Source of the DNA: Anaerolineales bacterium
GTDB taxonomy: Bacteria > Chloroflexota > Anaerolineae > Anaerolineales > Villigracilaceae
DNA length: 64,000 nucleotides
Assembly (NCBI GenBank): GCA_014860805.1
Contig: JACZJB010000056.1
Location: 1 to 64,000 of the forward strand
Reading direction: 5' to 3'
Positions 6,379 to 52,426 of this stretch are shown here, piece by piece (within the stretch, counting starts at the first letter, position 1; the number at the start of each line of letters is the position of its first letter). Below the pieces are notes generated by a model. It was not told the origin of the DNA and did not search any database. It saw nothing but the letters and a program-made list of their open reading frames with translations. A program made the translations under genes and the position numbers.

Positions 6379-6401
6379 TTAGCTTTTTCGCCGACTATAA
6401 T
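6372..6401 (+). promoter_or_regulatory. Promoter of the SARP/MalT-type regulator
   Basis: A perfect TATAAT lies at 6396-6401, with TTGCAA at 6372-6377 as the -35 (18-bp spacer). That -35 is also the last heptamer of the operator repeats. Transcription would start near 6408, only about 14 nt before the ATG at 6422. This excludes the in-frame TTG at 6401, which lies inside the -10, as the start codon. Confidence 0.55.
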
Positions 6402-6421
6402 TGGCAAGCCCGACCTTCTTT

Positions 6422-9400
6422 ATGAAACCTTCCATACTTCTTCGCACCAAGTTTCTCGTTCCGCGCCCGCGCCCTGAACTCCTCCCCCGCCCGCGGCTTC
6501 TGGACTGGCTTAATTCCACATCGGATAAACGCCTGACCTTGCTCTCTGCCCCGGCGGGATATGGCAAAACCACCCTGCTCGCCGATTTCATCCACGCCTC
6601 AGACTCCGCCTATGCCTGGTACACCATGGATGCTGGCGATTCCGACCCGACCGTTTTCCTCACCTATTTAATAGAAGCCTTGCGCAGTATGAAGCGCATC
6701 CCCGAACCACTCACGCGCGCCATCGGTCAGACCGCCCAATCCCTGCTCGATAGCGCCGATACAACCGTTTCTCCTCAACGCGTGTTGACCGTCCTCGTCA
6801 ATGAACTTGCCGAAGAGATTGAAACGCCCTGGCTGATCGTGCTCGAAGATTATCACTACGTCACCAGCCCGGTCGTTCATCAACTAGTGGACTTTCTGCT
6901 CAAGAACGCGCCAGAAGGGTTGCGCCTGATCATCTCCACCCGCATGGATCCGCCGTTGGCGTTAGCTCGTTTACGTGCTCGTGGCCAGCTCGCAGAATTA
7001 CGCGCCTCATCCCTGCGCTTTCGCGATGATGAGGTCGCGAATTGGATGCAGTCCAATCTGCCCAATATCTCTACTGAAAATCTAAACCTGCTCAGCGAAA
7101 AGACCGAAGGCTGGGTGGCGGCATTACAGATCATCCGTTCCTCCCTCAGCGGACGCAATGCCCGCGATGTGGACGCCATGCTGGCAGGGTTGAGCGGCTC
7201 ACAGCAATTCGTCTTTGACTATCTGGCAGAAGAGGTTTTCAAACGATTGCCGGAAGATATACAAAAGTTCTTATTGCAAACTTCCATTCTCAGCCAAATG
7301 GATGCATCCGCCTGCAATGCTGTGGCGGGGGTGAAGAACGCCCAATCCATTCTGGAGGAGTTGGAAAAACAAAACCTTTTCCTCTCGTCGTTGGATTCGC
7401 AAAAACGCTGGTATCGCTATCACTATCTCTTTCGTCAATTTCTCCACAGCCGCTTGGAGCGGGACGGGACAGAATCGATCATCAGCGTGGAAAAAAGCGC
7501 AGGCACACACTATGAGTCGCAGGGCGAGTTGGAGGCGGCGCTGTCGCATTATCTCAATTCGGGGGATTTTGAATCCGCCGCGCGAGTCGTGTCAGTTTTT
7601 GCTGCTGATTACGTCGAGCGGGGACGCGTGGAGGTTTTGCATCACTATTTGAGCGCATTGCCAGATGACGTAATGAAATGCAACCCCGAGTTGTTATTGC
7701 AGCACGGCAACGCACACTGGCGGCTTGGTCAGACCGGTGCAGCGATTGCCGCCTATGAAGATGCGCGTTCATCTTTTTCATCACAAAACAATTCGAGCGG
7801 AGTCTGCCGCGCCCTGACTCATTTGGCGGAGGTCAACCGCGCGCAAGGCAATTATCGTCAGGCTGAGACCTTGTCCACTGAAGCGCTTTCTTTTGCGGAT
7901 GAAGATCATGCCGCGCGTGCAGAAGCTTTGATGGCGCTTGCGAAAAGCGTTGGTTTTCTCACCGGGATGGACAAAGGACGTCAACTTGCCGAGGAAGCCG
8001 TGGAAGAAGCACGCCTCGCCAAAGACAAAGTGAGCGCATTGGCGCGCGCGAACTTTCTGCAATCGCTCGGTCAGATCTGCTGGTGGCATGGCGACCCGCA
8101 GGCGACGGTGCGCTATTGTCAGGAAGCCTTGCAGATCGCACCGGAAGAGTTTTCCCCCATCGGTGCACAGGCGTATATCTCACTGGTCACGCCGTATTTG
8201 TATTGGCGCGAATTGGATAAATCCCTGCAATATGCCGAGCGGGGGTTGCAGATCGCGCAGACGCTCCACCTGAAAGAACTGCTTCCAAGCGCGTACACAG
8301 CACTGGGAAATGTGCTTACGCGTTTGGGGGAAACCGCGCGCGCAGAAGCCAGTTTGCGGCAGGGCATGGAGATCGGTCAGCAGTTGGGACTGGCTTCGTA
8401 TGAGCAGTTGATGGCGACGGGCTATCTCGCCTACAACCTGTGCGGACAGGGTCGCGTGGAGGAAGCTCACCAACTGGCGGAAGGTGCGTTGTGGTCGTAT
8501 ACAGGCAATCCCGATACCTATGAGGCGTATGTCTGCCGCAGTGTGCTGGCTGATGTTGCGCTGGAAAATCGTCAGCTTGAAAAAGCGGAACATTTATATA
8601 CCGACCTGGTGGAAGTTGGGGAGAGGCGTCAATTCCGCATTCCGCTGGCAATGGTGTATTTTGGGCTGGCTTATATTCATCTCGAAACCAAACGTCCAGA
8701 AAGCGGGTTGGAATACGCGCGCAAGGCGTTGCGTCTTATCGAAGCCTCCCGCACCTTTCAACTCTTCCTCGATCAAGGGATCCGCTCGCAGGTCGTGAGC
8801 GAGGCGCTGATCCGCGAGGGCGAGAAGAGTCCATTTCTTGAGCGCGTGCTGGAAAATCTGCCAGAGATGCCCATCGAAGTTTTGATTCAGGATCGTTACT
8901 CGATTCAAGTGCAGTGTTTTGGTAATTTTCGCGTTTTGCTAAATGGAGAGGAAGTTTCCCAGGATCGCTGGGTCTCTGCCAAGGCGCGTGATCTGTTAGC
9001 GTATTTTGTTACCATGCGCGGCGAAAAAAGCCCTGCGGATAAAGTCTTCGATGCCATCTGGGGAGAAAAGGAACGCACCAGCCGTACTGCTTTTCATACT
9101 GCGCTCTCACGGCTCCGCAACGCCCTCAAAGTTGGGGACGACAGCCCGAGGTTGATCCTCGTTGAAGTGGGGGAATACTGGCTGGATTCCGCCCGGTTCA
9201 GTATCGATGTGGATGAATTTAACCTATCCATCGCCAAGGCGCGTTCTGCTACGAGTCATGAAACCGCCGCTGAGTGGCACGAGCGGGCGGTCGCTTCCTA
9301 TCAGGGTGAATACCTGCAGAATCTGTATTACGAGTGGGTCTTCCCCGAACGCCGCAGGCTGGCGCAATCTTACCTGAACGCGTTGCAAGAACTGGCGACC

Positions 9401-9640
9401 TATTACCTGTCAACTCACGCCTCCAAACAGGCCGCTGTCTGTGCCGAAAAAGCCATCGCCCTCGACCCGCTGAACGAAGACATGTACTGCCTGTCCATGC
9501 GCGCGCACGCTGATCAGGGCGACCGCGCCGGTGTGGCAAGGGTCTACACCGAGTTGAAGTTACACTTGCAAACAGAGTTAAATGCCAAGCCCATGGCTGA
9601 AACGGCAAAACTTTACCGCGAAATGATGAATTTGAAATAA
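6422..9640 (+). CDS. SARP/MalT-type transcriptional regulator: NTPase, TPR, winged helix, BTAD
   Basis: A 1072-residue cytoplasmic regulator. A MalT-like N-terminus (MKPSILLRTKFLVP) leads to Walker A (SAPAGYGKTTLL, about residues 42-53) and Walker B (WLIVLEDYHYV, about 130-140). A long TPR-like helical repeat region fills about 400-800. A winged-helix domain follows (VQCFGNFRVLLNGEEVSQD, about 835), then a bacterial transcriptional activator domain to the end. This order matches AfsR/SARP-like activators, except that the DNA-binding part is C-terminal. It is probably a signal-gated ATPase switch. It is divergent from the peptide importer, whose promoter region it likely controls. Confidence 0.88.
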   Translation: MKPSILLRTKFLVPRPRPELLPRPRLLDWLNSTSDKRLTLLSAPAGYGKTTLLADFIHASDSAYAWYTMDAGDSDPTVFLTYLIEALRSMKRIPEPLTRAIGQTAQSLLDSADTTVSPQRVLTVLVNELAEEIETPWLIVLEDYHYVTSPVVHQLVDFLLKNAPEGLRLIISTRMDPPLALARLRARGQLAELRASSLRFRDDEVANWMQSNLPNISTENLNLLSEKTEGWVAALQIIRSSLSGRNARDVDAMLAGLSGSQQFVFDYLAEEVFKRLPEDIQKFLLQTSILSQMDASACNAVAGVKNAQSILEELEKQNLFLSSLDSQKRWYRYHYLFRQFLHSRLERDGTESIISVEKSAGTHYESQGELEAALSHYLNSGDFESAARVVSVFAADYVERGRVEVLHHYLSALPDDVMKCNPELLLQHGNAHWRLGQTGAAIAAYEDARSSFSSQNNSSGVCRALTHLAEVNRAQGNYRQAETLSTEALSFADEDHAARAEALMALAKSVGFLTGMDKGRQLAEEAVEEARLAKDKVSALARANFLQSLGQICWWHGDPQATVRYCQEALQIAPEEFSPIGAQAYISLVTPYLYWRELDKSLQYAERGLQIAQTLHLKELLPSAYTALGNVLTRLGETARAEASLRQGMEIGQQLGLASYEQLMATGYLAYNLCGQGRVEEAHQLAEGALWSYTGNPDTYEAYVCRSVLADVALENRQLEKAEHLYTDLVEVGERRQFRIPLAMVYFGLAYIHLETKRPESGLEYARKALRLIEASRTFQLFLDQGIRSQVVSEALIREGEKSPFLERVLENLPEMPIEVLIQDRYSIQVQCFGNFRVLLNGEEVSQDRWVSAKARDLLAYFVTMRGEKSPADKVFDAIWGEKERTSRTAFHTALSRLRNALKVGDDSPRLILVEVGEYWLDSARFSIDVDEFNLSIAKARSATSHETAAEWHERAVASYQGEYLQNLYYEWVFPERRRLAQSYLNALQELATYYLSTHASKQAAVCAEKAIALDPLNEDMYCLSMRAHADQGDRAGVARVYTELKLHLQTELNAKPMAETAKLYREMMNLK

Positions 9641-9713
9641 CTGAACTACAGCTTTACAGATTAACTTATCTAAATCTCCATATTCCTGATTTCAAAACAA
9701 AACCGGCAATTTT

Positions 9714-9738
9714 GAACCTTTTCCAACCTGGGCGGTAC
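9714..9738 (+). promoter_or_regulatory. Candidate ECF-type promoter for the sigma-factor operon
   Basis: GAACC at 9714-9718 and CGGTA at 9733-9737 resemble the GAAC -35 and CGT-type -10 elements recognised by ECF sigma factors, separated by about 15 bp. They lie just upstream of the sigma gene, which is where an autoregulatory ECF promoter is normally found. This is pattern recognition only; no second copy of the motif was found. Confidence 0.35.
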
Positions 9739-9760
9739 ATATAGATGAGAAGCAGAAACA

Positions 9761-10363
9761 ATGCCAACAGCCGACCTTGCCCTTCCCTGGAAATCGCAAG
9801 AGACACAAGCCGCCATGACGCAACCCGTTGACGACCTCGACCTTATTCGCCGCTTGCAAGCAGGTGACGACGATGCCGTGCGTGACCTGTACGCGCAGTA
9901 CGGTCAGCGACTCTATGCGTATGCCTTACGCCTCACCAATGATCCCGCCACCGCCGAGGACATAACTCAAAACACACTCGTCACCGCATGGCGCACAGCT
10001 CGTACCTTTCGCGGCGAGGGACGTCTCATTGCGTGGCTGTTGGGCATCGTCCATCACACGGCGATGAAAGCGATTCGGAACAGCACAAACTATCTCGACG
10101 ACGTGGCAGAAGAAACCATCAGCGAAGATCAGCCGTCGCCGGAGGAACAGGCGCAGGTTAAGGATGAGAGGCGTTGGGTGCGTCAGGGCATTCAGAGTCT
10201 TTCGTCCGAACATCGCGCCGTGCTTGAACTTGTCTTCTATCAAGAGTTATCGCTCAACGAAGCCGCGCAAGTGTTGAACATTCCCGTTGGTACGGTCAAG
10301 AGCCGCCTGAGTTATGCGCGCAATCATCTGCGCGGCGTGTTGGCGCGCACGGAGGAACGATGA
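9761..10363 (+). CDS. ECF-type RNA polymerase sigma factor
   Basis: A 200-residue sigma-70 family protein. Region 2 reads LYAQYGQRLYAYALRLTNDP then EDITQNTLVTAWRTARTF; region 4 reads ALNEAAQVL-like helix-turn-helix sequence (LSLNEAAQVLNIPVGTVKSR). The first ATG (9761) gives an 18-residue extension before a second in-frame ATG at 9815 (MTQPVDDLDL), which could be the true start. The stop overlaps the anti-sigma ATG as ATGA. It is the first gene of an operon with an anti-sigma/permease fusion and an ABC exporter. Confidence 0.93.
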   Translation: MPTADLALPWKSQETQAAMTQPVDDLDLIRRLQAGDDDAVRDLYAQYGQRLYAYALRLTNDPATAEDITQNTLVTAWRTARTFRGEGRLIAWLLGIVHHTAMKAIRNSTNYLDDVAEETISEDQPSPEEQAQVKDERRWVRQGIQSLSSEHRAVLELVFYQELSLNEAAQVLNIPVGTVKSRLSYARNHLRGVLARTEER

Positions 10364-11229
10364 ATCACGAAGAACAACTCATTCGCTACGCCGCGAATCA
10401 ATTGAGTGAAAACGAACGCGCAGAGTTTGAACAACATCTCGCGAATTGTGCCGACTGCCAAACGGATTTGCTTCTCTGGAAAAGCGTTGCGGATGAAATT
10501 CACGCTTCAAACGCAACCGTACCTGCTCCTGTCCATTTAGCAGATTCTGCTCTGGAAGCGATTCACGCTCCCTCGAAGTTGACGCGCGCCTTCAAGAGTA
10601 TGACTCAATTGCTGCGTATGCAACTACTTCTCATACACAACGAGTTGTGGGTCGGCTCGGCGGCGTTGATGTTCATCTTTTTAGCGATGGCGTTGCTCGT
10701 GGCGCGCGTGGAAGTATTGCACTTCTTCGTACCGATAGTCGCCGCTGGAACTGTGACTTTGATCTATGGCTCCGAGCATGACCCCGCCGCCGAGTTGACT
10801 TTTGCCACGCCCATCTCACCATGGAAGATTTTGCTGGCACGCCTGACGCTCGTCTCTGCCTATAACGTGTTTCTCGCTCTGTGCGCCACGGTTGGACTGC
10901 TTCTCATCTTGCCGCCACAAGCCCTCGGTGAACTCATTCTCGGCTGGCTCGCGCCGATGACATTTCTCTCAGCGTTGGCGCTTCTACTTTCATTGTGGAT
11001 CGGCACAAGCAACGCCTTGTTCATTTCATACACGCTGTGGGCGGCGCAATATCTTGCGTTGACTTCTGTGGGCGAGTGGTTTGCCTTCCTCGCTCCGTGG
11101 CTTGAGTCGTATCGTCAGTTCTGGAATGACCCTGCTCTGCTTTTCATCTTTGGCTTTGCGTTGGTTCTGTTCGCGCTCTGGTCTGCTGGGCGTGAACAAG
11201 TGCAATGGCGTAGAACGATTGCATTATAA
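10360..11229 (+). CDS. Zinc-finger anti-sigma factor fused to an ABC-2-permease-like membrane domain
   Basis: A 289-residue protein. Residues 1-45 form a ZAS-type anti-sigma domain with the H26-x3-C30-x2-C33 signature (EQHLANCADC). About residues 85-285 form six hydrophobic segments. The core segment AAELTFATPISPWKILLARL aligns with AIELRFATPIRAAQILFERI in the ABC-2 permease gene at 12113, so the membrane half looks like an ABC-2 permease rather than the single helix common in anti-sigma factors. ATGA-coupled to the sigma gene. Inference: sigma release is tied to the state of the exporter. Confidence 0.85.
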   Translation: MNHEEQLIRYAANQLSENERAEFEQHLANCADCQTDLLLWKSVADEIHASNATVPAPVHLADSALEAIHAPSKLTRAFKSMTQLLRMQLLLIHNELWVGSAALMFIFLAMALLVARVEVLHFFVPIVAAGTVTLIYGSEHDPAAELTFATPISPWKILLARLTLVSAYNVFLALCATVGLLLILPPQALGELILGWLAPMTFLSALALLLSLWIGTSNALFISYTLWAAQYLALTSVGEWFAFLAPWLESYRQFWNDPALLFIFGFALVLFALWSAGREQVQWRRTIAL

Positions 11230-11244
11230 AAAACCTTTTTGACC

Positions 11245-11292
11245 ACAAAGGGTCACAAAAGTACACGAAGGTTTTCCTTTGTGACCCTTTGT
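11245..11292. repeat. Inverted repeat with 15-bp perfect arms
   Basis: ACAAAGGGTCACAAA (11245-11259) is the exact reverse complement of TTTGTGACCCTTTGT (11278-11292), with an 18-nt loop. The surroundings carry the CCACAAAGG/ACACGAAGG wording that recurs in shortened form near 39380 (CCACAAAGAACACGAAG). It sits between the anti-sigma gene and the first permease. It may be a REP-like element or an intra-operonic hairpin; no T-run follows on the plus strand. Confidence 0.7.
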
Positions 11293-11323
11293 CTCCTTCG
11301 TGGTAAAGAATTTGGAGAATATA

Positions 11324-12103
11324 ATGTCTCGATTTTTCGGCGTCTTACGCCATGAATTCAATATGTCCCTTCGCCGCCCTGGCATGTGGTTCGCTTATGG
11401 ACTGCTCTTCCTCTTCTATTCGGTTGCGGTCATGTACCCCGTGCCCGAAGAAAAAGTGACCATTCTCACCGACAAACAGATCTGGCAATATGCCGGTCAG
11501 ATGGCATTCACCTTTAATCTGTTTCTGCCCGTTATGGTTGGCATCCTCTCTGCAGATCGCTTGCAGCGCGACTTCCGCATGGGAGTACGCGAGCTGCAAG
11601 AAAGCACCCCACTCAGCATCCTCGAATATACGCTTGGAAAATATTTAGGTGTATTGCTCGCCTCGCTCACCCCTGTACTCATTTGGCTATGGCTCATCAC
11701 ATGCTTGTTCATCGCCTTTGGTAATGCGCCCATCGATTTCTTCTTCACGATGACTCTGGCTTTCTTTGCCATCATGGTGCCTACCTTCGCCTTTGTTATC
11801 GCCTTCTCATTAGCCTGTCCGCTCATCATGCCGTTGCGTGTCTACCAAATTCTGTTCACAGGCTATTGGTTCTGGGGCAACTACATCAACCCGGAAATGT
11901 TCCCCACTCTCAACGGGACCCTGCTCACCGTCAGCGGGATGTATGTCTATCAGGGATATTTTCTCGGCTTCATTAACGCCACCGAACCGTTGACCTACTC
12001 CGCCTCAGACGCGACCCTGAACTTGATCGTGCTCGGACTCTGTATTGCCGCTGTGATGGTTGTCCTCAACTATTACCTGCAATGGCAGTCCCGCCGCGCA
12101 TAG
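11324..12103 (+). CDS. ABC-2 type transporter permease
   Basis: A 259-residue membrane protein starting MSRFFGVLRHEFNMSLRRPG, a typical ABC-2 permease N-terminus, with about six hydrophobic segments. The ATG at 11324 has GGAG seven bases upstream; the longer frame from a GTG at 11300 would run into the repeat region, so I rejected it. It is likely one half of the exporter channel together with the next gene and the ATPase at 12788. Substrate unknown. Confidence 0.85.
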   Translation: MSRFFGVLRHEFNMSLRRPGMWFAYGLLFLFYSVAVMYPVPEEKVTILTDKQIWQYAGQMAFTFNLFLPVMVGILSADRLQRDFRMGVRELQESTPLSILEYTLGKYLGVLLASLTPVLIWLWLITCLFIAFGNAPIDFFFTMTLAFFAIMVPTFAFVIAFSLACPLIMPLRVYQILFTGYWFWGNYINPEMFPTLNGTLLTVSGMYVYQGYFLGFINATEPLTYSASDATLNLIVLGLCIAAVMVVLNYYLQWQSRRA

Positions 12104-12112
12104 GAAGGTAGA

Positions 12113-12775
12113 ATGAAACGATTTTCGTTGAAATACACCTTGCTTACCTACCGCCTTGACCAACTTTGGTTCCCGCTGGCATTTTGGGCATTCTTCGTCA
12201 TCCTGACACTGCTCTTGAGTAATGAAGAACAGAATTTCGACATCGCGCGTGGATATATCGGAGTCGCAGTTCCGCTTATTGGTGGGATCATGGCAGCCTA
12301 CGCAATCCTCGATGACCCGGCCATTGAGTTGCGCTTTGCGACTCCCATCCGTGCCGCGCAAATCCTCTTTGAAAGAATCTCTCTGATTTTTTTCATCCAA
12401 GCCGTGAGCGCGCTCGCTTTCATCGTCTTTGCCCTGCTCATCGGCGTGGACTTCTATCCGCTTGGCGATTCGCTCAACTTGCATCTCTCATGGCTCGTCC
12501 CCACCGTGGTGATGATCGCCCTCGGAACTTTCGGCGCGATCCTCGGCGCACAGACCATGATCGGTTCTTTCCTCGTCGGTTTGGTCTGGATCATCGAGAT
12601 CATCATCCGTGATGCGATGACATTCAACAACTGGAAGTATGCCTATATCTTCATGGGTATTCTTAACCCCGAACACCCCGACCTTGTGTCGAATCAAATT
12701 GCACTCTTTGTCACTTCAGCCGCTTTTCTTTTCTTCACATGGCTGTTGTTGCATCGGCAGGAACGTTATATCTAA
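12113..12775 (+). CDS. ABC-2-type permease-like membrane protein
   Basis: A 220-residue protein with about six transmembrane segments, 9 bp after the previous permease. It shares the segment AIELRFATPIRAAQILFERI with the membrane half of the anti-sigma fusion (AAELTFATPISPWKILLARL), so the two are paralogous domains. It is probably the second channel subunit of the exporter, or a partner that competes with the anti-sigma membrane domain for the same site. Confidence 0.78.
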   Translation: MKRFSLKYTLLTYRLDQLWFPLAFWAFFVILTLLLSNEEQNFDIARGYIGVAVPLIGGIMAAYAILDDPAIELRFATPIRAAQILFERISLIFFIQAVSALAFIVFALLIGVDFYPLGDSLNLHLSWLVPTVVMIALGTFGAILGAQTMIGSFLVGLVWIIEIIIRDAMTFNNWKYAYIFMGILNPEHPDLVSNQIALFVTSAAFLFFTWLLLHRQERYI

Positions 12776-12787
12776 AAGGACGCACTC

Positions 12788-13693
12788 ATGATTCAAATTA
12801 ATGGACTCACCAAAACCTATGGCTCTGGAAACAAAGCCGTTCACGCCCTCAACGGCATAGACTTGCAAATCAACTCAGGCATGTTCGGCTTACTCGGTCC
12901 GAACGGCGCGGGCAAGACCACTTTCATGCGCATCCTGGCGGGCATCGTCAACCCTAGTGGCGGATCCATCCGCGTGGATGGGCACGACCTCACCACCGAA
13001 GCGGGCAAGCATACCGTCAAGTCCATGCTTGGGTATTTGCCGCAGGAACTCGGCATGTACACCGAACTGACCGCCGAACAATTTGTAGATTATATGGCCA
13101 TCCTCAAAGGCTTGGATGATTCAAAGAAACGCAACAAGCGCGTGACCGAAGTGCTGGAGATGGTTGGCTTGCGCGACGTGGCGAAACGCAAAATCAAAGG
13201 CTTCTCTGGCGGGATGAAACGCCGCGTCGGAATCGCTCAAGCCTTGGTCAACAATCCGAAGATTCTCATCGTGGATGAGCCAACAGCGGGGCTTGACCCC
13301 GAAGAACGGATTCGCTTCCGCAATTTACTCGTCAATCTTGCCACGGATCGTGTCGTATTGCTATCCACACACATCGTCGAAGACATCGGTCAGACCTGCC
13401 GCGACCTGGCTGTGCTTGCCAGAGGACGCATTCTCTTCCGTGGCAGTCCATCGGATTTACTCACGGCCACTGAAGGTCATGTGTGGACCTTGACTATGTC
13501 TGGCCTGGAGAAACCCAACCACGATCTGACCGTTGTTTCCATGCTACACCTTGCAGAAGGGACGCAGTACCGCCTCGTTGGCAGATCAGCACAGGAATAT
13601 CCTTCCGCGCAGCCGACCCAGCCGGGCTTGGAAGATGGTTATGTGTGGCTGATGAAGCAGTCAAATCAGGAAGTCCTTGCAGGCGATCCATAA
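12788..13693 (+). CDS. ABC transporter ATP-binding protein (ABC-2 exporter type)
   Basis: A 301-residue ATPase with Walker A (GPNGAGKTTFMR), signature (FSGGMKRRVGIAQAL), Walker B (ILIVDEPTAGLDP) and switch histidine (STHIVEDIGQT). The roughly 80-residue C-terminal extension is typical of ABC-2/drug-exporter ATPases. Last gene of the sigma/anti-sigma/permease operon. It converges on the minus-strand gene ending at 13762, and I saw no clear terminator in the 68-bp gap. Confidence 0.92.
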   Translation: MIQINGLTKTYGSGNKAVHALNGIDLQINSGMFGLLGPNGAGKTTFMRILAGIVNPSGGSIRVDGHDLTTEAGKHTVKSMLGYLPQELGMYTELTAEQFVDYMAILKGLDDSKKRNKRVTEVLEMVGLRDVAKRKIKGFSGGMKRRVGIAQALVNNPKILIVDEPTAGLDPEERIRFRNLLVNLATDRVVLLSTHIVEDIGQTCRDLAVLARGRILFRGSPSDLLTATEGHVWTLTMSGLEKPNHDLTVVSMLHLAEGTQYRLVGRSAQEYPSAQPTQPGLEDGYVWLMKQSNQEVLAGDP

Positions 13694-13761: not shown

Positions 13762-14220
13762 CTACACCTTCGCTCCTCTGTGAATCTCGGGAGACCCATT
13801 GTTCCATAAGATCTTTTGTGTAATGCCGCCAATTTTCCATGTCCCTGCTTCATTCACAAGGCGGAACGTGTAAAGGCAATGCGTGTTAAATTCGCCTGCC
13901 GCATCCCGAAGGGTTCGACCCTTCGGGATGCTTTGTATGCGCCAGATGAGCATGGATGCGCGGCAAATGGCCTGGTCTGGGGCGGAAAAATCAATTTCCA
14001 GATTACCCAGCAGGTGATGGGTTGTCAGTGACGCAAGCGCCTCCGTTCGCAGACGAACGTATTCGGCGGCGGGGAGTGTTTCGGGCGGCGTGCCGCGCAG
14101 ATCGGAGTAGTCGGTAAAAACCTGCGGGGCGAGACAACCCTCCAACGCCGACCAGTCTTTCAGGTCAAATGAAGAGGCGAAGCGGGCAATCAAGTTTTGG
14201 ATGGCGAGGGCGTCGTTCAT
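13762..14220 (-). CDS. SnoaL-like / NTF2-fold protein
   Basis: A 152-residue protein of the nuclear-transport-factor-2 fold. It has the typical N-terminal helix IQNLIARFASSFDLKDW, then LEGCLAPQVFTDYSDLRG and a C-terminal LVNEAGTWKIGGITQKILW strand. The ATG at 14220 overlaps the protease stop as ATGA; the longer open frame upstream is antisense noise inside the protease gene. Members are small hydrolase/isomerase-like or ligand-binding proteins, and no specific role can be assigned. Confidence 0.82.
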   Translation of the reverse strand: MNDALAIQNLIARFASSFDLKDWSALEGCLAPQVFTDYSDLRGTPPETLPAAEYVRLRTEALASLTTHHLLGNLEIDFSAPDQAICRASMLIWRIQSIPKGRTLRDAAGEFNTHCLYTFRLVNEAGTWKIGGITQKILWNNGSPEIHRGAKV

Positions 14221-15071
14221 GCTGCCTGCGCTTCCATTTTTCCCATTTGATTCCAGACATACCATGCCATGACCAGCAAGATGGGAAGTAATGCTGCGCC
14301 AAATTCGCCGGTGAAGTAGGCGGTCTTGCCCGTGTCGAAGGTGATGCGATCCAAAAAGGTTTGAATGACGCCGTTGTGTGTGGCGTGCATGATGGCAACC
14401 GGGATGATGCTGCCCGATTTCATCCTGATCCACGCCATGACCATGCCGCTGGCAATCACCATCAGGGCAAAGCAGGCAAGCCGGTATGCAAGGGGCATTG
14501 CCTGTGCGCCATAATCACCGGAGAGGATGCCCGGCAAATGCCATGCTGCCCATATCACTCCGCTCAACCAGGCGGCGTTTCGCAAGCCCAGCCACTTTGT
14601 CAGTTCGGGAACGAGAAAGCCGCGCCAGCCGATCTCTTCACCCAGGCTCAACAACATGGATGGAATCAGGTTAACGAGCGTGATGTAGAAAAAGGCGGCG
14701 ATAATGAGCAAATTGTTGGGGGCGTCTGGCATGTTGAGCGTGAAACGGGCGCGTTCTAAAAAGGTTAGGTTGGGGACTCCGCCCAGTCCCGTCAGCCAGA
14801 TCAACGCGTATGCAGGGAGGGCATAGAAGATGGGCAAAATCCAGCCCAGGCCCAACCATTTGAGCGGCGTGACACGCCAGCCAATATCTTTCATCGAACG
14901 GCGGGTGATCAGGCTTGTCAACAGGGCAGCCAGTGCCGGACTGGTCATCAAGATTAACGCAGCAAGAGGCGAATCTGCCAGCCGGGAGGCAAGGAGATTG
15001 GCGATGATCGTGGCAAGCAGCAGTAATACAAGGTAAATGGTAACGCGCCATTGGGGAGATTGTTGTTTCAT
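14217..15071 (-). CDS. CPBP-family intramembrane metalloprotease
   Basis: A 284-residue, about eight-helix protein with all CPBP (CAAX protease / bacteriocin-processing) motifs: EEIGWRGFLVPEL, WHLPGI and HATHNGV. The start is taken at MKQQSPQWR (15071); an upstream in-frame start would add only seven residues. Family roles include prenyl-protein processing and self-immunity to peptides. It is translationally coupled to the SnoaL-like gene. Five CPBP genes occur in this window. Confidence 0.88.
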   Translation of the reverse strand: MKQQSPQWRVTIYLVLLLLATIIANLLASRLADSPLAALILMTSPALAALLTSLITRRSMKDIGWRVTPLKWLGLGWILPIFYALPAYALIWLTGLGGVPNLTFLERARFTLNMPDAPNNLLIIAAFFYITLVNLIPSMLLSLGEEIGWRGFLVPELTKWLGLRNAAWLSGVIWAAWHLPGILSGDYGAQAMPLAYRLACFALMVIASGMVMAWIRMKSGSIIPVAIMHATHNGVIQTFLDRITFDTGKTAYFTGEFGAALLPILLVMAWYVWNQMGKMEAQAA

Positions 15072-15105
15072 GGTTGTTCCTTTTTTGGGCAAGTCAAAGA
15101 ATCTT

Positions 15106-19861: not shown

Positions 19862-19987
19862 TCCGCCTCGATATAAAACTTACTGGCAAAGAACGTGAAG
19901 CAGATCATCGAATAACTCCAAAAGAAAAAGAAACTCCCCAACTTTGAAAAGCATGGGATGAGAATTTTCACCTTTATAATTGCTCCT

Positions 19988-22609
19988 ATGCCGTTTCCAA
20001 TCCTGTTAACGAAACTGTATCCACCGCTGCCAGCAGAGGGATTTGTTCATCGACACAGCTTGATGGATCGTGTGCAAGCAGGCATAAACGGCAGGATAAC
20101 CATCATCTCCGCTCCGCCTGGGTTTGGAAAAACGACGCTGCTCTCGGTGTGGATTTCGAATAAACAAAATAAAAAAGTGGCTTGGTATTCATTGGACGAA
20201 GACGACAATGAACCAGGTCGCTTTTTTGCATATATTGCCGCTTCTCTGCGTCCGCTCGAACCTGATTCCGTTCTCACGCTAGACTCCCTGCTGGAAGCTG
20301 GTTTCACAAACCCGCGCGAATTGACCGTTGCGCTCCTCCATGATCTGTCCGAGTTTGTGAGTACAAGCGTCGTCCTGGTGTTGGACGATTATCATCACAT
20401 CACATCGCAGGCCATCCATGATGCGGTCGCCTACCTGATCGACCATCTGCCATCCAACATCCACCTGGTTTTCATCAGCCGCGTGGACCCACCGCTCCCG
20501 CTTGGACGCTGGCGCGTGCGTGGACAGTTGACCGAGATCCGAGCCGATGACTTGCGTTTCAAAAAAGAAGAAGCCGCGCAGTTCCTCATTCAAACGATGG
20601 GGCTTTCGTTGAGCGCCGAAGACATTCGCACGCTGGAAGCGCGCACCGAAGGCTGGGTGGCAGGACTGCAACTTGCCGCGCTCACCCTGCAAAAATCCAC
20701 AAATTCTAGTGAAATCATTTCTGCGTTCGCGGGCAGCAACCGCTATGTAGCAGACTATCTTACCGATGAAGTGCTTTCGCGTCAGCCCGAGACCCTGCGT
20801 GATTTTCTGTTGAAGACTTCCATCCTGGAACGCTTCAACGCCTCGCTGTGTGACCAGGTTCTACAAAGCGAACAATCGGAATCTCTGCTTGCGGAATTGG
20901 AACGTGCCAACCTGTTCATCATCCCACTTGACTCTGAATCGAATTGGTATCGTTATCACCATCTCTTCGCCGATCTGCTCAAACGCCGTGCTTCAACAGA
21001 AACCACAGACCTGCACCGTCGCGCCGCGGAATGGTTCGAGAAAAATAATTTTCTACTCGACGCCATCCGTCACTGGATCGCGGCAGATGAGCCTGACCGC
21101 GTGGCTTCGTTGGTGGAACACTCCATTGCTCATACCTGGGGGCAGGCGGAACTTGCGGGTCTCATGCGCCGCATTGAGTCCCTGCCCGAACCCATCCTTG
21201 CAAAATACCCTGCTCTCAGCGCCTTTCTTGGTTGGATGTGGCTATGGCTCGGCTATGGCAGTGAGCGTATTCTTCCATTGCTTGACCGCGCTGAAAAAAA
21301 TTTGGGGGCCGAATCGGACACCGCGCTGGGACGCTTCAACGTCATCCGCAGTTTTATCGTCCGCATCAGGGATAACGACGCCTCAGACTCCGTTCGGCTG
21401 GGCCGCCTTTCCTTGAGCCAACTCTCCGCTGACGATTCGCTCTGGCGCGGCTTCGCCAACATGAGCATCGCCATATCCCTGCATTCATCGGGTCATCTGA
21501 TCGAAGGCGAGGATGCGTACAAGGAGACCATCCGTTTATGTGAGCAGGGCGGAGATCCGATCACTGCCTTGATGGCTGCCTGCGCGATGACCCAATTGCT
21601 CTTCGACTGCGGCGACCTGCAACGTGCATTATCGTTCAGCCAGCAAATGGCGAATGGATTACGTGAGAAAACCAGCACAAGCCTTGTTCGCGGCTGGGTA
21701 CACATCAACAAGGCACGGGCATATTATCTGGTCAATGACTTGAAGAACGCCTGGCTGGAAGCCAATCGTACATTGGACCTGGAGACCCAAACAGGCGGCA
21801 TGCCCGATGTGGGTCTGCGCCTGTATGCGTTATTGACCAAACTCGAATTGCTGAATGGAAATGAATCCGCCGCCTGTAAAGCTGCCGATGATTTGGTGGC
21901 TCTTGCCAACCGCGGCGGTGTGACCAACGCCATTGACTGGGCTCATGCCGTCCATGCTGAGTTGATGTTCAGGCTCAAGGACTGGGCTGCCTTCGATTCG
22001 TATGCGCGGATGTATCGTCCGCCGCAGCAGCCGCTATTTTTTCCCTATCGCTTGCAGACGTTGTTACAAGTCCGCTATTTGGCGCGGCAAAAGGCTTGGG
22101 ATGAGGGTCGCCGTCTGGTGGAGGAGCAGGTTCGATTGGCGCGTGAAGCGGGGTACGTCGAATATGAAATGGAACTTCACATCGTCCACGCGTTGATGGA
22201 GCAGGAGGCAGGCAAGTCGTCCGTTGCCTTCAAAACACTCGAACGCGCCTTGGAAATTGGCAAGACAAACGGCTATGTGCGTGTCTTTCTTGATGAAGGC
22301 GATGGGATGAAAAGTCTTCTTGCGCAGATTCAGAAATCACGCAAAGACGATTTTGTAGCAGATCTGCTTTCTGCGTTTGGCAAGTCTGTGCATATTGACC
22401 AATCTTCCTTGATCGAACCGCTGACGGAGCGTGAGATCGACGTGTTGAAGTTGATCGCCGAAGGATTGTCGAACCCTGAGATCGCGGAAAAACTATTCCT
22501 GTCGGTCGGCACGGTCAAGACACACGTCAAACATATCTATGGAAAGTTGAATGTAGATGACCGCGTCAAAGCGGCGAGTAAGGCACGCGAGTTAAAGCTG
22601 CTCGGCTAG
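19988..22609 (+). CDS. MalT-like LuxR-family regulator (STAND ATPase, TPR, LuxR HTH)
   Basis: An 873-residue regulator. The N-terminus MPFPILLTKLYPPLPAEGF is typical of the family. Walker A is ISAPPGFGKTTLL (about 40-52) and Walker B VVLVLDDYHHIT. A helical repeat region lies at about 380-790, and a C-terminal LuxR helix-turn-helix reads LTEREIDVLKLIAEGLSNPE. The ATG at 19988 is preferred over an in-frame ATG ten codons earlier because the family motif begins there. It is probably a ligand-gated ATP-dependent activator for the divergent cupin/lipoprotein operon and perhaps its own gene. Confidence 0.9.
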   Translation: MPFPILLTKLYPPLPAEGFVHRHSLMDRVQAGINGRITIISAPPGFGKTTLLSVWISNKQNKKVAWYSLDEDDNEPGRFFAYIAASLRPLEPDSVLTLDSLLEAGFTNPRELTVALLHDLSEFVSTSVVLVLDDYHHITSQAIHDAVAYLIDHLPSNIHLVFISRVDPPLPLGRWRVRGQLTEIRADDLRFKKEEAAQFLIQTMGLSLSAEDIRTLEARTEGWVAGLQLAALTLQKSTNSSEIISAFAGSNRYVADYLTDEVLSRQPETLRDFLLKTSILERFNASLCDQVLQSEQSESLLAELERANLFIIPLDSESNWYRYHHLFADLLKRRASTETTDLHRRAAEWFEKNNFLLDAIRHWIAADEPDRVASLVEHSIAHTWGQAELAGLMRRIESLPEPILAKYPALSAFLGWMWLWLGYGSERILPLLDRAEKNLGAESDTALGRFNVIRSFIVRIRDNDASDSVRLGRLSLSQLSADDSLWRGFANMSIAISLHSSGHLIEGEDAYKETIRLCEQGGDPITALMAACAMTQLLFDCGDLQRALSFSQQMANGLREKTSTSLVRGWVHINKARAYYLVNDLKNAWLEANRTLDLETQTGGMPDVGLRLYALLTKLELLNGNESAACKAADDLVALANRGGVTNAIDWAHAVHAELMFRLKDWAAFDSYARMYRPPQQPLFFPYRLQTLLQVRYLARQKAWDEGRRLVEEQVRLAREAGYVEYEMELHIVHALMEQEAGKSSVAFKTLERALEIGKTNGYVRVFLDEGDGMKSLLAQIQKSRKDDFVADLLSAFGKSVHIDQSSLIEPLTEREIDVLKLIAEGLSNPEIAEKLFLSVGTVKTHVKHIYGKLNVDDRVKAASKARELKLLG

Positions 22610-49802: not shown

Positions 49803-52352
49803 TCAGGCATTCAACAATATTTTTCTAGCGACATCCTCAAACTGGTCATCGGTTTTGAAACGCGAGGCAGCATCCATCTCACGGGGAGATACTTTATCTT
49901 TCAATTCCTCTGCCAATCTTTCAGCGCGAGCTCTGGTCTTCAACAAAGCAAAAGAATTGATGAGGCAATAATGTGACAATTGCAGAGCATACGAATAATT
50001 ACCGCGCCTGGCCTGCAAGTCTGCGATATCAACGAGCACATCCAACGCCGTGAGTGGCCCCTGCGTATCCAATGAAAGCTTCAGGGATTCATGCCAGAGA
50101 GCCTCAGCTTCGAGATCATTTCCCAAGGCAAGGGCGCTGCGTCCCATCTCTGAAAGCAGGCGCGCAATATCCCAGCGCGCGCCAAGTTCATTGAAGTAGT
50201 GCAGGCTTTTTTGAAAGGCTTCATAGGCTTCAACATGTTTTTCTTGCGCCTGTGCCAAAAGCCCCAAGCTGCGATAGGCATTCCCCAACCCCATGCGATC
50301 TCCGATCATCGCGTTAATCTCAATGCTTTCTTCCAACGCAGCTTGGGCTTCATCGTATTCTTGTGCATCCTTCGCGCTCAAACTGAGGGAGGTGAGCCCA
50401 AATGCGGTGAATCGCAAGTCGCCGGTTTTTCGCCAGGCTTCCACGGCGGCTTGAAATTGTTCATGCATTGTTTCAGTTTTTCCAAGCAGCATATCCACGC
50501 CGACGAGTTCCGTCAGGCAAAGCGCTTCATACCATTTATCGTTGATACTGCGGGCTGTCTTCAATCCTTCTTCGAATAGATTTGCAGCCCGGGCAAGGTT
50601 GCCCATGATGATGTTGATAATCCCTAAAAAGGTAAGAGCCTCTTCCAACGTATTTGGGTCGTGAACAGATTTCAATAACTCCAGACTTTCTTCAAGCATG
50701 AGTTGGGTTTCTTCATGTTGTGACGTTCGCAAGGCAAAGAGTGAACGTGCAGTCAGTACATGTGCCAGAGATTTCTTTTCTTCATCGCTTAGAGACCGAT
50801 TCGACAAGACATCTTGAACACATTTGAGGTAATCCAACCCTTCTTGATACCAACCCAGCATATCGTATAACGTCGAGTAGGCGCGCAACCCGGTTTCGAT
50901 GAGCACAAATTCTTGACGCGCCAATGCCCATTCCAATGCGCTGCGGATGTTGTCAATATCCGCGACGAGTTTTGCCAGTGACTCGCGCTGTGTCGAACTT
51001 CGTAATGGCAGATCTTCTTGGCCAAGGAAGTTGATAAAGTATCGCCCATGAAGAGCCTGCGCCTCTTCCTTGACCTCGGGCTGGTCTGCCAACCGTTCAG
51101 CCGCGTACTGTCTGATGATCTCGTGTAGATCATATCGCCCCATTCCATTTCTGCGGATCAATGATTTCGAAACTAACGCTGAGAGCGCAGGCAAGGCTGC
51201 ATTCGCGATTTCTTGCGCGGCTTCGCGTGAAAACCCACCCTGGAAGATGGCAAGATGGAGCAATATTTTCTGCTCTTCCTCAGTTAGAAGTTTCCATGAA
51301 TGGTCAAAGACCGCACGAATAGAACGGTGACGGGTTGGCACATCTTTGGCTGAGATGGATAGAAAATCCAATCCATGCTCGATCTCACTGGCGATCTCAC
51401 GGCAGGATAACGTCCGCACCCACGCGGCAGCGAGTTCAATGCCAAGCGGCATGCCATTCACCAGGTTGCAAATGCGAACAATGGCAGGATAGTCTTCCAT
51501 GGTGGCATCAAAGCTGACATGTGCGCGGCGGGCGCGCTGCAGAAACAACTCTACAGATGTTCCATCAATGTCCGTCCCTTCGGGAATGGGAAGTCCATGA
51601 ATTTCATACATCCACTCGCCCTGCAAGCCAATCGACTCGCGCGATGTGACCAAAAGTTTGAGTTTGGATGTTTTTTCTAATAGCTCTGCAAAGAATTCTG
51701 GGACAGTTGCATCGCCGAGAAGGTGTTCAAGATTATCGATCAGCAGAAGGGTGTGTTTATCTTTGAGATAATTGAACAACTGCTCTTTTGGCTGGTGCTC
51801 GCCTTGAAGCGTAAAGCCCATCGAGTCTGCAATTACGGGGATGAGGAAACGGGAAGAGTGAATCGGCGCGAGAGGGACAAAATAAACACCATCTTCATAA
51901 TCGGTTTGAGAACGAGATGCAGTTTCGAGTGCAAGGCGGGTTTTGCCCATGCCGCCGGGACCCGCTATAGTCAACATGCGGCAATGCGGGTCGGTTAAAA
52001 GTTTGCAGAGTTCATCCACTTCCTGCTGACGCCCGATGAGAGGAGTGGGCAGAATGGGGAGGTTGGAAGATGAGGTTTGAGTTGGGGGAAAGTTTGGGGG
52101 CTGAACCCGCTGCGATACGGGAGAGAGGCGATCTGTTGTCCATTCACCTCGGGCTACTTTGACGAAGGTTTCCCGATCATCAATTTCCAAACAATTGGCG
52201 ATCAATTCAGCGATCTGTGCAGAGGGACGGCGTTCATCGTCTTCGATCTTGCGCAGCATGGCAGTTGAACAGCCAACGCGGCTGGAAAATTCCTCGCGCG
52301 TCAGCCTGCGTGCTGTGCGTTGCTCACGAAGCCATTCGCCAAATGTTTTCAT
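49803..52352 (-). CDS. XRE-type HTH, NB-ARC-like ATPase and TPR regulator
   Basis: An 849-residue regulator. The N-terminal XRE-type HTH reads GEWLREQRTARRLTREEFSS then STAMLRKIEDDERRPS. The linker is Pro/Ser/Gln-rich. The P-loop is TIAGPGGMGKTRLALE (about 127-142), with LLLIDNLEHLL as Walker B; a STAND/NB-ARC winged-helix part and TPR-like repeats (about 430-849) follow. ATG 52352 is preferred over an upstream start 15 codons earlier because the HTH starts here. It is divergent from the second cupin operon, whose promoter it probably controls. Confidence 0.9.
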   Translation of the reverse strand: MKTFGEWLREQRTARRLTREEFSSRVGCSTAMLRKIEDDERRPSAQIAELIANCLEIDDRETFVKVARGEWTTDRLSPVSQRVQPPNFPPTQTSSSNLPILPTPLIGRQQEVDELCKLLTDPHCRMLTIAGPGGMGKTRLALETASRSQTDYEDGVYFVPLAPIHSSRFLIPVIADSMGFTLQGEHQPKEQLFNYLKDKHTLLLIDNLEHLLGDATVPEFFAELLEKTSKLKLLVTSRESIGLQGEWMYEIHGLPIPEGTDIDGTSVELFLQRARRAHVSFDATMEDYPAIVRICNLVNGMPLGIELAAAWVRTLSCREIASEIEHGLDFLSISAKDVPTRHRSIRAVFDHSWKLLTEEEQKILLHLAIFQGGFSREAAQEIANAALPALSALVSKSLIRRNGMGRYDLHEIIRQYAAERLADQPEVKEEAQALHGRYFINFLGQEDLPLRSSTQRESLAKLVADIDNIRSALEWALARQEFVLIETGLRAYSTLYDMLGWYQEGLDYLKCVQDVLSNRSLSDEEKKSLAHVLTARSLFALRTSQHEETQLMLEESLELLKSVHDPNTLEEALTFLGIINIIMGNLARAANLFEEGLKTARSINDKWYEALCLTELVGVDMLLGKTETMHEQFQAAVEAWRKTGDLRFTAFGLTSLSLSAKDAQEYDEAQAALEESIEINAMIGDRMGLGNAYRSLGLLAQAQEKHVEAYEAFQKSLHYFNELGARWDIARLLSEMGRSALALGNDLEAEALWHESLKLSLDTQGPLTALDVLVDIADLQARRGNYSYALQLSHYCLINSFALLKTRARAERLAEELKDKVSPREMDAASRFKTDDQFEDVARKILLNA

Positions 52353-52361
52353 GTAAAAAAA

Positions 52362-52383
52362 TTGTAACACTTTTTGTAACACT
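52362..52383 (-). promoter_or_regulatory. Direct repeat GTGTTACAA between XRE-regulator and cupin
   Basis: Two copies of GTGTTACAA on the minus strand (52382-52374 and 52370-52362), 12 bp apart, reading toward the regulator, only 10 bp upstream of its ATG. They match the GTGAYACAA repeats of the first cupin/regulator pair in wording, period and orientation relative to the regulator gene. TTGACA at 52387-52392 may be the -35 of the divergent cupin promoter. Confidence 0.5.
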
Positions 52384-52426
52384 GAATTGACACCCAAAGG
52401 GCGGCTGGAAAGCGTTTAATGTGCGC

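Follow-up and report, generated by a model that had tools for sequence, protein, structure and literature searches.

Operon organization and the question it raises

Why should an anti-sigma factor carry what looks like the membrane domain of an exporter? The question is raised by an operon on contig JACZJB010000056.1 of an Anaerolineales bacterium (Chloroflexota; assembly GCA_014860805.1), of which positions 1 to 64,000 were analysed (hereafter the window). Five plus-strand genes, which sit at the positions given in an original prediction made from the letters alone, encode in turn an extracytoplasmic function (ECF) sigma factor (SIG), a 289-residue protein (ASP), two ATP-binding cassette (ABC) permeases of ABC-2-like type (PERM1 and PERM2) and an ABC ATPase (Table 1). 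Sequence comparison and structural models indicate that ASP combines an anti-sigma head with an ABC-2 domain in one chain and belongs to a conserved five-gene module.

The membrane half of ASP is a divergent ABC-2 domain by profile and fold

The original prediction drew attention to a segment shared by ASP and the permease encoded at 12113. The two quoted segments correspond to residues 145-162 of ASP (ELTFATPISPWKILLARL) and 72-89 of PERM2 (ELRFATPIRAAQILFERI), and their likeness exceeds that expected from composition when compared with shuffled and reversed controls. They lie in the loop between transmembrane helices 2 and 3 (TM2-TM3), where ABC-2 permeases have the coupling helix by which they contact the ATPase. 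Because ABC-2 permeases generally have a coupling helix there, the segment alone is weak evidence, and it is the match of the whole domain that decides. BLASTP aligned ASP and PERM2 over 88 columns (E 4e-8), and their Smith-Waterman score was 107, compared with 71 for the best of 1000 shuffles and 33 for the reversed sequence. With hhalign the match covered 188 columns (E 8.7e-16); when a 59-row ASP alignment was used the value was 1.5e-15, and the reversed PERM2 control gave 0.15. No significant sequence similarity was found between ASP and PERM1. Since PERM1, a remoter ABC-2-like protein, reached only 0.09 in hhalign, the ASP-PERM2 signal is not mere hydrophobicity. In the genome of the window, the adjoining PERM2 was the sole further match of ASP at E<=0.001.

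The fold agrees with this relationship. An AlphaFold2 model of ASP, built on the 59-row alignment (mean predicted local distance difference test, pLDDT, 85.6), was all-helical, and six membrane segments were found by hydropathy in the closest relatives (L013-L015), in line with the six or so helices anticipated. VIA-align superposed the model on NosY (7o12_E; Z 15.0, root-mean-square deviation (rmsd) 3.8 over 196 residues) and on ABCG5/G8 (Z 15.9, rmsd 4.0 over 208 residues), and all 50 matches that it listed were ABC exporter membrane domains. BLASTP, hhalign and fold thus concur with the original prediction that this half is related to ABC-2 permeases; a generic anti-sigma helix bundle unrelated to them was looked for and not found. 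In Pfam, ABC2_membrane_2 was matched by 5 of 24 ASP members at E<=0.1 (best 3.9e-7), PERM2 had no ABC-2 match at E<=1, and sequence searches of the PDB with PERM1 and PERM2 gave no match. The membrane half of ASP is, by profile, fold and homology and not by Pfam, a divergent ABC-2 member, and the anchor that it provides looks like a half-transporter that is still functional, as far as its sequence tells.

The head of ASP is of the anti-sigma type

SIG contains Sigma70_r2 (residues 43-108, E 3e-16) and Sigma70_r4 (residues 144-191, E 4e-14) in Pfam, and scores above the cut-off of TIGR02937 sigma70-ECF; with regions 2 and 4 only in about 200 residues, it has the make-up by which ECF sigma factors are recognized. 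Its stop codon and the ASP start overlap by 4 nt (ATGA). The zinc-finger head proposed for the 289-residue protein was located: the ligand motif H-x3-C-x2-C occupies residues 26-33 (H26, C30 and C33), and zf-HC2 scores 34.0 bits against a Pfam cut-off of 22.2. The NF052375 antisigma model matched at E 7.6e-12, which is below that model's cut-off. The head superposes on RslA (3hug_P) with an rmsd of 1.3 over 48 columns and a TMt of 0.72 (Foldseek E 3.0), and has weak sequence matches to ChrR (2q1z/2z2s), RslA and DdvA. A PDB sequence search with ASP returned anti-sigma heads, one chance enzyme and nothing else. Among 59 ASP members (see below), NCBIfam gave anti-sigma models only at E<=0.001, the generic one being matched by 34.

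Hx3Cx2C is present in 34 of the 59 heads. Twenty zinc-less rows, all from Chloroflexota, form one group (support 96/71), the remaining ones being three actinomycetes, a Proteobacteria metagenome-assembled genome (MAG) and L089. Going by these sequences, zinc is optional in ASP heads. Most of the zinc-less Chloroflexota heads retain a W-x-x-P-type stretch with a helix after it, which may be the equivalent of helix 4, which contacts sigma region 2 in class I domains according to the accessible part of a survey (PMC7406223).

The module is conserved in two phyla

ASP residues 196-204 served as the one peptide pattern in a scan of genome_contigs, a collection described as covering 84,980 species. 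Sixty of the 68 stretches matched were confirmed, giving 59 ASP loci; because a single peptide pattern was used, this count is a lower bound. By record title, 38 loci are from Chloroflexota, 20 from Actinomycetota and one from a Proteobacteria MAG, and the architecture occurs in records of named strains such as Longilinea arvoryzae KOME-1, Phytohabitans flavus, Frankia canadensis and Actinoplanes. A sigma gene lies at most 600 nt upstream of ASP in all 59, and the 4-nt overlap recurs in 47, a number biased upward by choosing the ASP start nearest the sigma stop. Downstream genes were counted, with profiles retrained on these loci, in the 46 loci that have at least 4.5 kb of downstream DNA: PERM1 and PERM2 were each found in 46/46 and the ATPase in 43/46, with exactly one of each in 38. 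The permeases are in the order PERM1-PERM2 in the group of the window and PERM2-PERM1 in actinomycetes. The survey of gene order called for by the original prediction thus found the module conserved.

That prediction had left it open whether the anti-sigma protein replaces a permease subunit or joins it. Replacement is not supported, PERM1 and PERM2 both being kept in 46/46 loci. A tree built from 58 ASP membrane domains and as many PERM2 sequences has a single branch that splits the two sets (100/99; 0/500 shuffles), so that ASP joins the permease rather than taking its place. The tree is unrooted, its separating branch is long and several rows are long-branched; left out were the fused ASP of L116, the truncated ASP of L089, and the PERM2 of L070 and L089, which lie at contig ends. 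Broad groups recur in both halves, and we read the tree as one old ASP/PERM2 duplication after which both copies would have been retained together in two phyla. A PERM2-like gene would have been duplicated beside the sigma gene and one copy would have acquired an anti-sigma head; the tree itself shows one split, and from it we deduce both the ancestral copy and the gain of the head.

ASP is present in 7 of the 37 genomes of the window's genus and is therefore an accessory trait. At class level, ASP has matches at E<=0.001 in 44 of 298 genomes; by our reading only 16 of the 297 other genomes match well into the membrane half, the rest mostly having zinc-finger heads only. In an actinomycete survey at least 4 of 197 genomes match at E<=1e-20, one of them being the chosen centre. 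At least two of the other 196 genomes (L209 and L210) have ASP, PERM1 and the ATPase, and a further match at that threshold (L211) had no ASP or permease match in its gene calls.

Several variants were noticed. L116 and L125, two ASP operons of one Chloroflexi MAG, lack an ATPase gene in their neighbourhood, and one may be shared from elsewhere. In some zinc-less Chloroflexota operons (L058, L060/L088, L090, L123 and L124) PERM2 is 700-1084 aa long. Pfam, run on L058 alone, showed PERM2 fused at 8262-10541 to an alpha/beta-hydrolase (Abhydrolase_1 E 4e-23, with a TAP-like C-terminal domain); the two permeases of L088 share a single frame. In L022 (5215-10963, minus strand), a sigma-PERM2-PERM1-ATPase operon has, in the place of ASP, an 807-aa protein that has a single membrane helix and matches nothing in Pfam. 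L062 had been considered as a minimal SIG-ASP-ATPase operon, in which ASP would have proved sufficient as the permease, and was rejected: its next frame is an alpha/beta-hydrolase, cut by the contig end, that resembles the N-terminal part of the L058 hydrolase-PERM2 fusion, and another contig of G143 ends in a PERM2-like piece.

Conservation of the TM2-TM3 segment and of the ATPase

E145 and R161 of the TM2-TM3 segment are invariant over the 59 ASP rows. When six close relatives were compared with the ASP of the window, identity was 82-95% in the membrane half, 71-79% in the head and 88-100% in the TM2-TM3 segment; in nine more distant relatives the segment was 50-69% identical, still ahead of head and membrane half. 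The ATPase of the window has all its catalytic motifs (Walker A GPNGAGKT, signature FSGGM, Walker B LIVDEP and H-loop LSTH), and all four are present in 50/50 ATPases found at the loci, with a signature pattern that allowed Y. The conserved segment and an ATPase adjacent in 43/46 loci both bear on a possible role of ASP in a dimer that works with an ABC ATPase.

In L116, ASP and PERM1 form a single open frame of 612 aa. A model of this chain covered both halves of two-domain exporters, matching the mycobacterial efflux pump 8k1o_A (Z 17.4, 441 residues, rmsd 4.9) and ABCA7 (8eop_A; Z 13.0, 447 residues, rmsd 5.5). The PERM1 half of the model matched NosY with Z 18.2. The chain was modelled from a 10+10 row alignment, a larger one having been dropped because PERM1 rows landed on the ASP half. 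We give the fusion little weight, because a Shine-Dalgarno (SD)-like GGGAAAGG precedes the inner ATG and the predicted template modelling score (pTM) is 0.58.

A probable self-promoter of the operon

Ahead of SIG, TGAACCTTTT-N12-GTACATA is kept in the window and eight relatives (9/9), in surroundings that align poorly; the copy in L074 has two changes in the -10-like part. Sites with zero or one mismatch occur once, before the operon, in 9 of 10 genomes and twice in G009. With two mismatches we found four sites, compared with nine for the reversed-pattern control, meaning no excess. A looser GAAC-N16..18-GTA was found in 26 of 58 loci (L082 was too short and left out), compared with a mean of 2.3 after shuffling, and chance probably accounts for part of the 26; patterns ending in CGTC gave no gain (6/58 versus 5.9 in shuffled sequence). 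SIG presumably uses TGAACCTTTT-N12-GTACATA. If it does, SIG, with about one site per genome, probably controls little beyond its own operon, which is itself probably autoregulated.

The second G009 site, a 17/17 match, lies just upstream of uppP (BacA/UppP, PF02673 E 1.5e-79), a gene found in 12 of the 15 genomes queried and without a match in the other three. UppP is the bacitracin-resistance phosphatase, and this single case suggests an envelope-antimicrobial role of the operon. An M20 peptidase had been considered as the second regulon member of G009 and was rejected, since the gene at the second site is uppP.

Comparison with known systems

Like class I membrane anti-sigma factors of the ZAS/ASDI kind (RslA, ChrR, RsiW and RskA being examples), ASP combines an Hx3Cx2C head with a gene directly downstream of an ECF sigma gene; its motif is above the Pfam cut-off, and the gene stands beside the sigma gene in the window and in 59/59 loci. 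ASP probably binds the sigma factor and holds it inactive. Unlike them, its membrane part is an ABC-2 permease domain, as far as profile and model indicate. In the accessible part of the survey of these domains no ABC-2 fusion is named and 'ABC transporter' occurs solely in a reference (PMC7406223).

CarR, of the DUF1109 type, resembles ASP in having six membrane helices and in sequestering an ECF sigma factor, as ASP is predicted to do. Scans of 24 and of 59 ASP members with Pfam gave no family of the DUF1109 type, and we know of no exporter operon for CarR. The original prediction held that ZAS factors usually have one membrane helix or none; this is a fair rule, to which six-helix CarR-type factors, which sequester ECF sigma factors according to the accessible text of PMC8156234, are exceptions. 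The same text describes DUF1109-type factors as largely proteobacterial and CarR as acting in light-induced carotenogenesis (PMC8156234).

If the exporter indeed controls SIG, the operon would resemble BceAB-BceRS, where control of the exporter's own genes is coupled to the exporter. Bce modules differ in that sensing passes through a histidine kinase and a response regulator that are separate proteins; the present operon has a sigma/anti-sigma pair, and its regulator appears to be a permease paralogue. Bce permeases also belong to another structural type. Our open reading frames and Pfam matches show no kinase encoded in the operon, which has a sigma factor and ABC-2-type permeases instead. 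That the BceAB exporter is the sensor controlling its own genes is stated in the accessible parts of three articles (PMC6978683, PMC7828314, PMC10314905). On our reading, by analogy, the operon could be a one-protein counterpart of Bce flux sensing, and it is not itself a Bce module.

The Bacillus subtilis SigY operon (sigY-yxlCDEFG) likewise has an ECF sigma gene beside ABC transporter genes. The negative regulators of SigY are small separate proteins, not permease fusions. In ECF257 too, a sigma gene adjoins ABC transporter genes; unlike the operon studied here, this group is placed among those that have no cognate anti-sigma factor, in the accessible part of a review of non-canonical ECF systems that mentions no ABC-2 fusion there (PMC8999054). 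By their models, ASP and the ASP-PERM1 chain share their fold with type V ABC-2 exporters (NosFY, ABCG, 8k1o). We know of no anti-sigma head on NosFY, ABCG or 8k1o exporters. No ABC-2 anti-sigma fusion is described in the accessible text of the literature searched, the main 2021 ECF classification lying outside that search, and the fusion is not certainly unpublished.

Other features of the region

The coordinates are collected in Table 1. PERM1 has an alternative start, GTG at 11300. The gap between ASP and PERM1 forms a strong hairpin in the window and in L068-L073 (7/7, z -4.2 to -6.0 versus mononucleotide shuffles); these seven hairpins arise from four unrelated palindromic sequences. As the sole roomy gap it may collect repeats like repetitive extragenic palindromic (REP) elements, or a hairpin at this place may be under selection to set subunit ratios.

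A gene for an Rce1-like CAAX-type membrane protease (minus strand, PF02517 E 2e-16) is convergent with the operon at 14217-15092. Three large regulators with STAND and tetratricopeptide repeat (TPR) architecture (BTAD, LuxR-type and helix-turn-helix (HTH)/NB-ARC) are encoded in the window at 6401-9640, 19958-22609 and 49803-52397, and the first of these genes ends about 70 nt ahead of the SIG promoter. No frame of similar size was seen directly upstream in L068-L071, L073 and L075, where homologues were not searched.

Table 1. Positions of the operon genes, domains and sites (window numbering, except for the G009 gene, which is numbered in L172)
Feature	Coordinates	Strand	Evidence
SIG, ECF sigma factor, 200 aa	9761-10363	+	Sigma70_r2 + Sigma70_r4
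ASP, 289 aa, anti-sigma zinc-finger head + predicted ABC-2 half-transporter membrane domain	10360-11229	+	
PERM1, ABC-2-like permease, 259 aa	11324-12103	+	ABC2_membrane_3 E 8e-5, below Pfam cut-off
PERM2, ABC-2-like permease, 220 aa, paralogue of ASP membrane domain	12113-12775	+	
ABC ATPase, 301 aa	12788-13693	+	ABC_tran E 7e-34
ZAS head of ASP, residues 5-34	10372-10461	+	PF13490 zf-HC2 E 3.1e-8
ABC-2 membrane domain of ASP, residues 83-283	10606-11208	+	NosY fold match, hhalign to PERM2
ELTFATPISPWKILLARL, ASP residues 145-162, TM2-TM3 short helix	10792-10845	+	model helices 118-135, 142-149, 154-180
ELRFATPIRAAQILFERI, PERM2 residues 72-89, counterpart of ASP 145-162	12326-12379	+	BLASTP alignment
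Probable SIG self-promoter, TGAACCTTTT-N12-GTACATA	9713-9741	+	-35-like 9713-9722, -10-like 9735-9741
Hairpin-forming ASP-PERM1 gap	11230-11323	.	RNA fold z -3.6 vs dinucleotide shuffles
G009 uppP/bacA (L172)	gene 10507-11328, promoter 11357-11385	-	perfect promoter copy

How the sigma factor might be released

We propose, with an even chance of being right, that release is coupled to the exporter, ASP holding the sigma factor, contacting PERM1 or the ATPase and freeing the sigma factor when substrate is engaged. At rest, the ZAS head would bind the ECF sigma factor on the cytoplasmic side, near the ATPase docking place. ASP would occupy the position of PERM2 with PERM1, or meet the ATPase through its conserved TM2-TM3 loop, or both. 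Engagement of a substrate by the exporter, perhaps an envelope-active compound, would change the state of the permease or ATPase and so free the sigma factor, which would transcribe its own operon from TGAACCTTTT-N12-GTACATA and lead to more exporter and more anti-sigma factor; the resulting induction would be need-based and self-limiting. Sigma binding, pairing, transport, substrate and release are all deduced steps of this scheme, release being deduced from the conserved coupling-loop motif, the intact ATPase and the probable autoregulation. Put forward more tentatively, and in our judgement rather doubtful, is a fuller version in which ASP:PERM1:ATPase would be a sensing exporter and PERM2:PERM1:ATPase a transporting one. 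PERM1 would be shared, and in Chloroflexota and Actinomycetota the state of the pump would gate transcription directly, needing neither a kinase nor a protease nor any sensor besides; the system would serve, in G009 and perhaps in other genomes, in defence against compounds acting on undecaprenyl pyrophosphate.

A number of observations weigh against exporter-coupled release or against the homology that it assumes. The best Foldseek E of the ASP model was 0.027, and Z values near 14 can be reached by helical proteins with no known kinship; zf-HC2 was the sole Pfam match of the window's ASP at E<=1, with no ABC-2 family, and ABC2_membrane_2 was matched at E<=0.01 by 4 of 59 members. The zinc ligands are absent in 25 of 59 heads. 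Conservation at ASP residues 196-204 is there by construction, this being the scan pattern, and in the nine more distant relatives the membrane half leads the head by little (39-48% compared with 31-44% identity). Three of 46 loci have no nearby ATPase (L116 and L125, from the same Chloroflexi MAG, and L123). The L116 chain model is modest (pLDDT 73), and the fusion itself may be a lost stop codon. PERM1 and PERM2 look sufficient for an exporter even when ASP is left out, and the CAAX-type protease gene would suit proteolysis. Finally, the uppP site is found in G009 only, 11 of the 12 genomes with uppP having no such site within 250 nt of the gene.

The completeness of PERM1 and PERM2 on their own makes one alternative the serious rival, even if we consider it improbable: the ABC-2 domain of ASP would have given up transport and be a permease-derived ligand receptor, releasing the sigma factor independently of the ATPase, and PERM1, PERM2 and the ATPase would form the exporter. 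Receptors derived from transporters exist elsewhere, both permeases are kept in 46/46 loci, so that ASP is not needed for the permease pair, and the three loci without a nearby ATPase also fit. If contact with the ATPase had been lost, however, the TM2-TM3 segment that is expected to make it should have decayed, and few parts of ASP are better conserved; the single ASP-PERM1 frame of L116 also speaks against a receptor, with the SD-like site before the inner ATG as a caveat.

Less likely than exporter-coupled release or a receptor are two further explanations, each of which we give a small chance. ASP could be an ordinary anti-sigma factor subject to regulated proteolysis, its ABC-2 domain being mainly an anchor or a stress-sensitive degron. 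Proteolysis is a known release route for membrane anti-sigma factors, and the window holds the convergent Rce1-like protease gene. For some groups such release is reported in the accessible part of PMC8999054. Against it, conservation in close relatives is higher in the membrane domain than in the head, and ABC-2 features have been retained over two phyla, which exceeds the needs of an anchor. Equally improbable is a feedback on assembly, in which the sigma factor would be bound by free ASP and released once ASP enters a PERM1/ATPase complex, or the other way round; the operon would then meter assembly and not substrate. Probable autoregulation, with co-production of anti-sigma factor and exporter subunits, is consistent with it, and the hairpin in the ASP-PERM1 gap (7/7) could skew subunit ratios; the patchy presence in 7 of 37 same-genus genomes and the co-control of uppP in G009 are unexplained by such a cell-autonomous counter. 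A last explanation is that the fusion is an artefact of chance or of assembly, or that ASP and PERM2 have no more than hydrophobicity in common; membrane proteins are prone to spurious similarity, and many loci come from MAGs. Reversed and shuffled controls fail to reproduce the ASP-PERM2 likeness, though, and the architecture recurs in the records of named strains, which makes this explanation negligible in our view.

Significance

For many ECF systems the signal is not known. Should ASP prove to be both anti-sigma factor and exporter subunit, the signal here would be the exporter's own substrate or work cycle, one 4-kb operon would unite sensor, response and regulon, and flux sensing would extend from two-component systems to sigma factors. 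Such an operon would also provide a sensor module complete in itself, for which a candidate promoter is already defined, and a direct route to asking how transcription reads out the ABC cycle. Altogether, the operon suggests that sensing subunits evolve by duplication of a permease and addition of a regulatory head, and that a pump may directly control its own production.

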